Shown in pieces: positions 42,974-48,921 of a stretch of DNA of 50,673 nucleotides. The translations under genes and the position numbers were made by a program. A model generated the notes under the pieces. That model had not been told where the DNA came from. It made no database searches and saw only the letters and a list, made by a program, of their open reading frames with translations. Within the stretch, counting starts at the first letter, position 1, and every line of letters starts with the position of its first letter. The stretch comes from Clostridium sp. (GTDB lineage Bacteria > Bacillota > Clostridia > Clostridiales > Clostridiaceae): the NCBI RefSeq assembly GCF_029267215.1, contig NZ_JARIDH010000027.1:1-50673 (forward strand), given 5' to 3'.

Positions 42974-43561
42974 TTAGTAGTTTTCTTTAAATACTTCAAA
43001 GTAAGCTTGTGGATGTAAACAAGCTGGGCATTTTAATGGAGCTTCAGCACCTTCCCAAATAAATCCACAGTTTCCACATTTCCAAAGAAGAGTTTCATCT
43101 TTTTTGAATACTTTTCCTTCTTCCATGTTTTTAGCTAATTTAGTAAATCTATTAAAGTGAGCTGTTTCAGCCTTAGCTATCATTCTAAAAGCAGCTGCAA
43201 CTTCTGGGAATCCCTCTTCATCAGCTACATCAGCAAATGTTGGATATAAATTGCTTAATTCATCATGCTCACCTTCTGCAGCAAATTTTAAATTAGTTAA
43301 AGTATCTGTTGGTAATTCTACAGGATATGCAGCATTAATTTCTACAGCTTCACCCTGTAAATCTGCTTGTAAAAATTTGTAGAATCTTTTAGCATGTTCT
43401 TTTTCATTTTCAGCTGTTTCCATAAATATGTTTGATATTTGAACATATCCTTCTTTTCTAGCTGTGCTTGAGAAATAAGTATATCTTGTTCTTGCTTGAC
43501 ATTCTCCAGCGAATGATTTCATTAAGTTTTCTGCTGTTTTAGTTCCTTTTAAACTTTTCAT
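42974..43561 (-). CDS. rbr: Rubrerythrin
   Basis: 195 residues. Reduces hydrogen peroxide using a di-iron centre and a rubredoxin-like iron site, protecting the anaerobe from oxidants. Di-iron ligands lie in FAGECQARTRY, FMETAENEKEHAKRF, FAAEGEHDELSNLYP and IAKAETAHFNRF; the C-terminal domain has WKCGNCGFIW and LKCPACLHP with four Cys. GGAGG-like AGGAGGGT precedes the ATG. A candidate PerR box and promoter lie upstream at 43644-43701. Confidence 0.97.
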   Translation of the reverse strand: MKSLKGTKTAENLMKSFAGECQARTRYTYFSSTARKEGYVQISNIFMETAENEKEHAKRFYKFLQADLQGEAVEINAAYPVELPTDTLTNLKFAAEGEHDELSNLYPTFADVADEEGFPEVAAAFRMIAKAETAHFNRFTKLAKNMEEGKVFKKDETLLWKCGNCGFIWEGAEAPLKCPACLHPQAYFEVFKENY

Positions 43562-43701: not shown

Positions 43702-43927
43702 GAGTTTTTTAACATTTTGTAAATTTTTAAAAATATTTCTTCTTTAAATACTAACAAAATAATTTTAATAGAGTTTATTTATAATTTTTTAAAATGTTTA
43801 TTTTAATTTCTGCTGTGATAGTATTTTTTCTTATATAAATTAATATTATTCATAAAATTCACAAATGAATCTATTATAATTTAGGTTATAATAACTATAA
43901 TATAAAAATATATTTAGGAGGATCTTT

Positions 43928-44197
43928 ATGAAAGTAAAAATACACCCTAACACAGTTGATAAAATTAAAAACATGCTTTCTAATAGCGAAAAAGATGCAA
44001 TAAGAATAAAGGCATGTTCTGCCGGCTGAACCGGCTTAAATATTGAGGTTGTTCTGGATGAACAACATGATAATGATGATTTAGTTATTGATAATGGAAT
44101 AAAAATTGTTGCAGACAAAAAGATTTCTCACTTTTTCACAGATGCAACAATAGAATATAAAAGAACTTTTTTTGGTCATAAATTTAAGGTTTATTAA
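43928..44197 (+). CDS. HesB/IscA-like selenoprotein (in-frame UGA = selenocysteine)
   Basis: 90 codons with one internal TGA (44027-44029, codon 34). The frame reads MKVKIHPNTVDKIKNMLSNS, EKDAIRIKACSAGU, TGLNIEVVLDEQHDNDDL and continues to TFFGHKFKVY. This is an A-type iron-sulfur carrier-like fold (HesB/IscA); U34 falls in the first conserved Cys region (CSAGUTG). The C-terminal CxC of IscA is absent. AGGAGG precedes the ATG, and both sides of the TGA are clearly coding. A bacterial SECIS-like hairpin follows at 44048-44066. If selenocysteine is not inserted, the product is 33 residues. Known HesB-like selenoproteins exist in other bacteria. Confidence 0.85.
44048..44066 (+). promoter_or_regulatory. 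Bacterial SECIS-like hairpin
   Basis: GTTGTTC (44048-44054) and GAACAAC (44060-44066) form a perfect 7-bp stem with the loop TGGAT. The loop starts 25 bases after the UGA and has G in its second position, as bacterial SECIS elements require. Also GCCGG/CCGGC (44021-44025/44031-44035) encloses the UGA itself. Confidence 0.75.
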
Positions 44198-44408
44198 AAA
44201 ACTAAATTAATAACTATCTCTAAAAATATATAAATATATGCTTTATTTTATTAAAATTTTGATTTTATTTATAACATAAGATCTACTTACAGTTATATCT
44301 AAAATCAAAACTATAAAAAAAGATTCTAAATATTGAGTATAATATTTTATTTTTGGGGCAATAATATAAATAGCTTAATACACTCTTAAGTTAACCACAC
44401 AATTAAAT

Positions 44409-48020: not shown

Positions 48021-48350
48021 TTACTCTCTATTTTCAACCCATATTTCTACGAATTCTCTAAGCTCTTTCGTTTCTATTATGCATTTATCTTCATCATTGG
48101 AAATATTGTCATAGATAGTTGTAAAGTCTTTTCTCACTTCAACTCCACATACATTTCCATCTAGTTCCTCATATTCACTTTCTCCATTTAATACTTTATC
48201 TATGGCACTAAAAACATAACTTGCATCTGACCCCTGTATATCTGACATTAAAAATTCTGCAACTAATCTTATTTTAGGTTCAACAATTATTATTTTTTTC
48301 TTTCTTCCACTTTTAAAAGTAATTTCATCAAATTTATATGCATATTTCAT
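48021..48350 (-). CDS. Probable immunity protein for the adjacent EndoU RNase
   Basis: 109 residues from the ATG at 48350, the first good start after the EndoU stop (16-base gap, AGGAG 13 bases ahead); the open frame extends to 48410 but would overlap the toxin by 44 bases. Acidic, cytoplasmic, no signal: MKYAYKFDEITFKSGRKKK, then DIQGSDASYVFSAIDKVLNG and a Glu/Asp-rich C-terminus. I know no named family for it. A small acidic gene directly after a secreted nuclease is the usual immunity layout; the function is inferred only from that. Confidence 0.6.
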   Translation of the reverse strand: MKYAYKFDEITFKSGRKKKIIIVEPKIRLVAEFLMSDIQGSDASYVFSAIDKVLNGESEYEELDGNVCGVEVRKDFTTIYDNISNDEDKCIIETKELREFVEIWVENRE

Positions 48351-48366
48351 CTCTCTACATACACTC

Positions 48367-48921
48367 CTAATAAACTGGGAAGGCTGAAATAATTTTTCCT
48401 GTTTCATCATTTATATACATACTTATTTCAACACCCTCTTTACTTTCTCCAACATATGTATTCTTACTACCTTCTACAAACTCCCTATCTCTATAAGCCT
48501 CATTAATAGCATCAACAACCTGCTGAGGTGTCCAATCTTCTGGGAAGAAAGTTGATTTACCATGGTTAGCAGTTTTCTTAACTCCTTCAATTTCTACCTT
48601 TCCTGTGTAAACCCCTTCTTTATTAGGTTTTGATCTAGTTCCCTCTATAACTTTTCCCTTTGTACCTGGAAAATCTTCATAGTGAAAACCTACAGCTTTT
48701 CCTCTACCATTTATCTCACCATCAAAAATATGTTTCAAAGCACCTCTTTGAAAATGCTCCGTATGTTTTAAATCTTCTATTGAATTTACTGTATGTTTTT
48801 CAATATTAGAATTACTATTTTGCATACTAACCTTATTAGTACTACACCCTGTAAGTAGCCCTGCAATTAAAAACATCCCTAAAAATAATTTAATAAAGTT
48901 ATTTTTTATTAGTTTTTTCAT
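48367..48921 (-). CDS. EndoU-domain RNase lipoprotein
   Basis: 184 residues. Lipoprotein signal with lipobox LLTGC (Cys26), a short Ser/Asn linker, then a bacterial EndoU fold (about 60-184): KHIFDGEINGRGKAVGFHYE (first His), KTANHGKSTFFPEDWTPQQV (second His and Lys region) and the closing KIISAFPVY, which in the family reads kI.TaYP. EndoU domains are RNase toxins in contact-dependent and polymorphic systems. Here it is a free lipoprotein instead of a tip domain of a large protein. GAGAGGAT precedes the ATG. Confidence 0.8.
   Translation of the reverse strand: MKKLIKNNFIKLFLGMFLIAGLLTGCSTNKVSMQNSNSNIEKHTVNSIEDLKHTEHFQRGALKHIFDGEINGRGKAVGFHYEDFPGTKGKVIEGTRSKPNKEGVYTGKVEIEGVKKTANHGKSTFFPEDWTPQQVVDAINEAYRDREFVEGSKNTYVGESKEGVEISMYINDETGKIISAFPVY

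Follow-up and report, generated by a model that had tools for sequence, protein, structure and literature searches.

HesB-like selenoproteins form an established family. Table 1 of one paper gives 11 bacterial members and two Sec-to-Cys events (PMC1794560), and HesB-like is listed as a known selenoprotein in another, where a Clostridium perfringens entry was matched to HesB relatives (PMC1242214). The family is tabulated with the motif UxGP and the model TIGR01911 (PMC13188914) and occupies a table row in a further paper (PMC9312934). Mutagenesis together with 75Se labelling revealed the HesB-like selenoprotein of Methanococcus maripaludis; the account that reports this describes the protein's function as not clear and also cites as unpublished that a disruption mutant was unimpaired in nitrogen fixation (PMC11097638). 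The open-access literature, covered by titles and abstracts and with subscription papers mostly outside it, yielded no report on a branch of the kind described below, and no claim of a first description is made. The related carriers IscA, ErpA and SufA possess two C-terminal ligand cysteines (CxC) besides the first one.

The gene considered here lies in a stretch of 50,673 nucleotides of Clostridium sp. DNA (contig NZ_JARIDH010000027.1, genome G000), referred to as the window, and is less novel than was implied by the initial annotation, which had read it as a HesB-like selenoprotein gene hidden by an in-frame UGA. Its features are as follows.

43916 to 43921, plus strand: ribosome-binding site AGGAGG, read in the sequence, with the ATG at 43928 six bases on
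43928 to 44197, plus strand: predicted selenoprotein gene of HesB/IscA fold, 89 residues plus TAA, with a PF01521 match and with purifying selection before and after the UGA
44021 to 44035, plus strand: hairpin GCCGG/CCGGC with the UGA in its loop, complete in one UGA-containing row
44027 to 44029, plus strand: UGA codon 34, predicted to be read as selenocysteine from the UGA/Cys column in relatives and the alignment with the Cys of GCSG
44048 to 44066, plus strand: predicted bacterial SECIS stem-loop, 7-bp stem and loop UGGAU, with covariation, a CTG loop codon and a core found twice in the genome
44405 to 44450, plus strand: terminator-like stem-loop between the selenoprotein gene and a convergent CPBP-type gene

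The frame consists of 90 codons with its TAA, and the TGA is the only in-frame stop before the TAA; frame, ribosome-binding site and TGA at codon 34 were re-read in the sequence and lie where the annotation had placed them. With U at the UGA the product has a total of 89 residues and starts MKVKIHPNTVDKIKNMLSNSEKDAIRIKACSAGUTGLNIEVVLDEQ. The opposite-strand ORF that a standard gene finder was expected to report is present as well (43846-44118, 90 aa, TTG start). One terminator-like stem-loop was found 3' of the gene against a mean of 0.1 in shuffles, and a promoter scan gave nothing above shuffles. The read-through product scores 33.5 bits against PF01521 (gathering cut-off 26.3), which places it in the HesB/IscA superfamily and bears out the reading of a protein of this type that continues across the UGA. 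Among proteins of solved structure it matches four distinct HesB/IscA-type sequences, and in the two alignments shown, with 2apn (HI1723) and 1nwb, which we take to be IscA/ErpA-type proteins, position 34 falls on the Cys of a GCSG stretch. An AlphaFold model made from the single sequence is useless (mean pLDDT 42.3) and the fold assignment therefore rests on the profile and the sequence matches. Judged from sequence, the locus is very probably a functional selenoprotein gene of HesB/IscA (A-type) fold.

Relatives were sought in 206 genomes of the family, 90 of which gave matches; 98 hits were taken from fetched loci and 78 of them are distinct, the window gene being L019 among them. This set of 78 rows is a part of all matches, the weaker remainder having been left unaligned. 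An ad hoc score for ribosome-binding sites decided the starts of relatives. In the protein alignment four relatives end at a second in-frame TGA, and the DNA alignment covered the 14 Cys rows without the two Pro rows. An order-wide search of 225 genomes, including the 206, gave a best match of 45.5 bits outside the family and nothing close to the window protein. At the column of U34 the 78 rows carry UGA in 62 cases, Cys in 14 and Pro in two, so that the comparison with Cys-containing homologues called for by the annotation gives Cys in 14 of the 16 relatives that lack UGA; an in-frame UGA aligned with the Cys of relatives is one mark of a bacterial selenoprotein. This column also bears on the idea that the UGA encodes Trp or some other residue and that selenium plays no part, the code having changed throughout the genome or read-through being leaky. 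The open frame on either side of the UGA would suit such decoding, which is nevertheless highly improbable given that the position is Cys or Pro and never Trp in the 16 rows, that selA, selB, selC and selD all occur in the genome, and that a CTG codon in the hairpin loop is confined to the UGA rows among the 78. A TGC or TGT misread as TGA, conceivable in a single draft genome of 82 contigs, has a practically negligible probability, for the TGA recurs at the identical codon in most relatives and in L002, from a genus mate that was assembled separately (NZ_JARHZJ010000067.1, titled Clostridium sp.). This locus, the single relative to emerge from a contig search with the window protein, shares 75-76% identity with it.

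The 2.79-Mb genome in 82 contigs contains one selA (4.6e-190) and one selB (4.3e-118), both above cut-offs, and a selC encoding a tRNA-Sec with anticodon tca (64.9 bits, cut-off 47). Its selD is itself a UGA gene with the in-frame TGA in the motif SGUAAK, and three of the four genes adjoin one another.

G000, contig C30, 7995 to 12323: selD, selA and selB, consecutive on one contig

The four genes which the annotation had asked for are thus all present. Across the 206 genomes, selA occurs in 66 of 66 with a UGA-containing match against 22 of the 140 others, unaligned rows being counted when they had one TGA anywhere in the match, without a fixed column. Among 14 control genomes the selA search matched in E. 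coli only. In the window's genus a selA match is lacking from G001 and G006, which have Cys forms only and no in-frame stop; the other five genomes have selA and all carry UGA forms. A Cys form is kept despite selA in G129, G100, G101 and G103.

The window gene and L002 differ past the UGA with a pN of 0.091 and a pS of 0.761, and ahead of it with 0.157 and 0.548; a pair from G003 and G004 points in the same direction past the UGA (pN 0.125, pS 0.488). Purifying selection downstream of the UGA speaks strongly against a pseudogene in which a mutation to UGA killed a Cys-containing HesB gene. A stop one third into the frame is what such a gene would look like, but the UGA is common to most relatives, its occurrence is confined to genomes with selA and the SECIS stem covaries, leaving loss of function exceedingly unlikely. 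The annotation had named the absence of the sel genes and a random residue at position 34 as signs of a nonsense pseudogene, and neither was found.

Bacterial SECIS elements consist of a stem-loop just downstream of the UGA with a G within the first two bases of the loop. The hairpin of the window (GUUGUUC-UGGAU-GAACAAC) has this form; its 7-bp stem begins 18 bases past the UGA and the G stands at loop position 2, all as described in the annotation and confirmed in the sequence. A guanosine in a small apical loop is likewise given for SECIS elements in PMC1088965. The fold of the 51 bases that hold both hairpins (44020-44070) beats 200 of 200 dinucleotide shuffles (z -3.56). For the downstream hairpin alone, 12 of 200 shuffles of 44027-44080 and seven of 200 of 44028-44066 are equally good, and when the 20 codons past the UGA are recoded synonymously, 4,075 of 100,000 variants reach an equal stem length with a loop G. 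A stem of this size is not very rare by chance, and the case for the hairpin rests on its conservation and not on the single copy. Infernal with the Rfam models found no relevant family at 43850-44250, only two chance-level psRNA6 matches, and the SECIS call therefore rests on comparison.

In this comparison the 7-bp stem is paired in 89.2% of cells of the 62 UGA rows. Five of the seven pairs are changed on both sides in one row or another, a number reached by 4 of 500 shuffles, and two pairs are invariant. Cells changed on both sides number 27, where shuffles give 5.9 and reach this figure in 0 of 500 cases and slid controls give 1 to 10; further pair types show no excess, with 95 of 500 shuffles and two slid controls as high. 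The outermost pair is weak, being unpaired in 40 of the 62 rows, and the common stem is therefore about 6 bp. The fit is poor in three UGA rows: L091 has no hairpin by the rule used, L085 has its best stem elsewhere and L089 has four pairs. In the 2.79-Mb genome the pattern TGA-N21-GTTCTGGATGAAC has two matches, one at each of the two UGA-containing HesB genes, and the reversed control pattern has none. The second hairpin fares differently. Its arms GCCGG and CCGGC are present at 44021-44025 and 44031-44035 as the annotation had stated, but a shared element it is not, since all five pairs are found in one of the 62 UGA rows, and it is probably dispensable. Genome machinery, the Cys column and hairpin covariation agree with the reading of the UGA as Sec put forward in the annotation; recoding of codon 34 is near certain, and gene, Sec codon, SECIS element, machinery and selection are demonstrated as far as comparison of sequences can carry them.

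The hairpin also appears to leave its mark on the protein. For the leucine of the SECIS loop, 59 of 62 Sec rows and none of the 16 Cys/Pro rows use CTG, a codon that is rare in the window (7 of 1139 Leu codons in its ORFs of at least 180 codons). The peptide LDEQ is found in 51 of the 62 UGA rows and in none of the 16 others, including the six Cys rows of the window's own branch. It thus seems that the RNA hairpin imposes LDEQ, although several of the Cys/Pro rows are distant relatives. The presence of CTG and LDEQ in Sec forms and of neither in Cys/Pro forms suggests that a hairpin needed for recoding can determine the sequence of the protein.

It is proposed that translation would start at 43928, that SelB with Sec-tRNA would bind the stem-loop at 44048-44066 and selenocysteine would be inserted at the UGA, and that translation past Sec34 would then run to 44197. 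Sec34 occupies the place of the first cluster-ligand cysteine in IscA-type proteins. If Sec-tRNA were short, translation would stop at codon 34 of 90 and leave a 33-residue stub, and the UGA might on this account serve mainly as a selenium sensor. Every Sec gene behaves so, and the purifying selection downstream together with the Cys replacements suggests that the full protein is kept, which makes a sensor very unlikely.

In a tree of 78 rows by 98 columns, a group of 17 rows that includes the window gene splits off at a supported branch (100/98); the columns are few and branches long, the midpoint root serves for drawing only and the long branches within the group are unsure. The group comprises 11 Sec and six Cys rows, none of which has a Cys at least 55 residues past the Sec/Cys position. 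On the other side of this branch, a Cys of this kind, in most cases between +62 and +64, accompanies the Sec form in 48 of 61 rows. The motifs within the group are UTGL, UAGL, USGI, UGGI, UGGL, UHQT and UHSK, with UQGP in L030. In relatives that lack selA, Cys takes the place of the Sec. Tandem UGA HesB genes stand at a syntenic site in G003 (L099, from 5148 and 5515) and G004 (L100, from 9031 and 9395), a CxU copy coming first and then a copy with U as its sole Cys/Sec residue.

The only Cys or Sec residues of the window protein are Cys30 and Sec34, and it lacks the two C-terminal ligand cysteines of IscA, ErpA and SufA. An ordinary three-cysteine Fe-S carrier is unlikely because only Cys30 accompanies Sec34 and the C-terminal Cys is absent. 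The protein might still be an A-type Fe-S carrier whose cluster is ligated across a dimer via Sec34 and perhaps Cys30; it has the PF01521 domain, the Sec falls on the Cys of GCSG, and A-type proteins form oligomers. Against this stand the missing distal Cys in the window protein and throughout the 17 rows, and the poor conservation of Cys30, which is common to the window protein, L002 and two copies in G102 and to no other row of the branch, so that a carrier of this sort is unlikely. The favoured reading, put at slightly less than even chances, is that the window protein carries out redox or metal-binding chemistry through its selenol, with or without the participation of Cys30. That the branch is a separate functional type, with an A-type fold without the C-terminal cluster Cys, one selenol, and LDEQ as an imprint of the RNA rather than a true protein motif, is a possibility put forward with less conviction. 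The branch belongs to a 20-year-old family and itself lacks the C-terminal Cys; should it be functional, the activity common to the family cannot be the binding of a cluster by three cysteines.

The surroundings of the gene were compared across loci, and the following neighbours are referred to below.

Window, 42974 to 43561, minus strand: rubrerythrin gene (Pfam), head-to-head with the selenoprotein gene
L057, 1943 to 12100; L112, 7385 to 10354; L113, 7978 to 11276: adhE beside branch Sec forms in genus g10
L106, 7689 to 8288, and L107, 9332 to 9943, as examples: DUF1836 gene beside other HesB loci
L102 (G000, contig C75), 8900 to 9244 and 9351 to 9677: UGA copy and Pro paralogue, the second HesB site of the genome

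In G000 to G004 the HesB gene is followed by a convergent CPBP-type membrane protein, CinA and an EamA transporter, assigned by Pfam in the window and by resemblance in the other genomes. The Cys gene of G001, which has no selA match, lies in the syntenic context of the UGA genes of G000, G002, G003 and G004. No neighbour common to all loci and pointing to one function was found. Rubrerythrin was considered as a general partner and rejected, as only in the window does it stand head-to-head with the selenoprotein gene and it is absent from the ORFs listed at other regions; in G002 the distance to a rubrerythrin-like gene (by resemblance) upstream is about 2.8 kb, three ORFs intervening. In genus g10, adhE adjoins all four Sec loci of the branch that were found (two in G102, one each in G104 and G105), the identity of three G102 genes resting on profiles and that of the G104 and G105 genes (L112 and L113) on resemblance. 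Both Sec loci of G102 lie among three adhE copies. The ORFs listed for the three g10 Cys loci (G100, G101, G103) and for the window's genus do not include adhE, and its association with branch Sec loci is regarded as a lead. On the reading of a separate functional type, the proteins of the branch may guard or maintain enzymes that depend on iron and are sensitive to oxygen.

Other HesB loci have recurrent neighbours of their own. A DUF1836 gene is convergent downstream at 29 loci from 14 genera, two of them confirmed, and upstream there are recurrent divergent genes that resemble those for carbamate kinase, ornithine carbamoyltransferase and arginine deiminase; the window's branch is not among the loci listed for either kind of neighbour, at most 14 per cluster. 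Elsewhere in the window (48021-48921, minus strand) lies a gene for an EndoU nuclease-domain protein with a lipoprotein-like N-terminus; a 129-aa ORF that overlaps it has no Pfam match, and the two could encode a nuclease and its partner protein.

A further comparison is offered by the second HesB site of the same genome. On C75 a Pro paralogue (GGYGPVGP, tail CSGNCGSCGSCH) is followed by a UGA copy (GVGUGGP, tail CSSCSSCH), and a similar Pro/UGA pair exists in G002 (L028). The selenoprotein of C75 (L029) resembles the window gene in its UGA and its identical SECIS core, GUUCUGGAUGAAC. It differs in its GUGGP motif and Cys-rich tail CSSCSSCH, in reaching 109.3 bits against TIGR01911, which is above the cut-off, and in its place on the opposite side of the 100/98 tree branch.

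The window protein was run against NCBIfam with 10 relatives, seven of them from its branch. Its best match is TIGR00049, the model of an Fe-S assembly accessory protein (47.5 bits, cut-off 58.8); it reaches 44.3 bits against TIGR01911 HesB_rel_seleno (cut-off 66.35) and 40.5 bits (E 2.7e-10) against NF038090 IscA_HesB_Se (cut-off 85), and lies far below the IscA, SufA and ErpA cut-offs. All seven branch relatives are also under the TIGR01911 and NF038090 cut-offs, and the GUGGP relatives L038 (45.9 bits) and L067 (52.2 bits) miss that of TIGR01911 too. Since two of the three non-branch relatives run also fall below the cut-offs, these models are narrow, and a selenoprotein gene of the present kind is probably missed by score-based annotation. 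The UxGP motif that marks TIGR01911 is absent, with UTGL in the window protein and UAGL in L002; for this reason and because both cut-offs are missed, the protein is filed under the HesB/IscA superfamily but outside the NCBI Sec-HesB subfamilies.

Like the TIGR01911 HesB-like selenoproteins, the window protein combines an A-type domain with Sec in place of Cys, a SECIS-dependent UGA and Sec/Cys exchange. It differs from them in having UTGL where UxGP is tabulated (PMC13188914) and in lacking the C-terminal Cys that is present in 48 of the 62 Sec rows. With NF038090 it has the superfamily in common, although its score stays under the cut-off of that model. It resembles TIGR00049, IscA, SufA and ErpA in that Sec34 lies on the GCSG Cys of 2apn and 1nwb, and departs from them in that Sec replaces the Cys and the C-terminal Cys pair is absent. 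The window protein is a HesB/IscA-superfamily selenoprotein that works like the HesB-like family and is an unusual relative of it.
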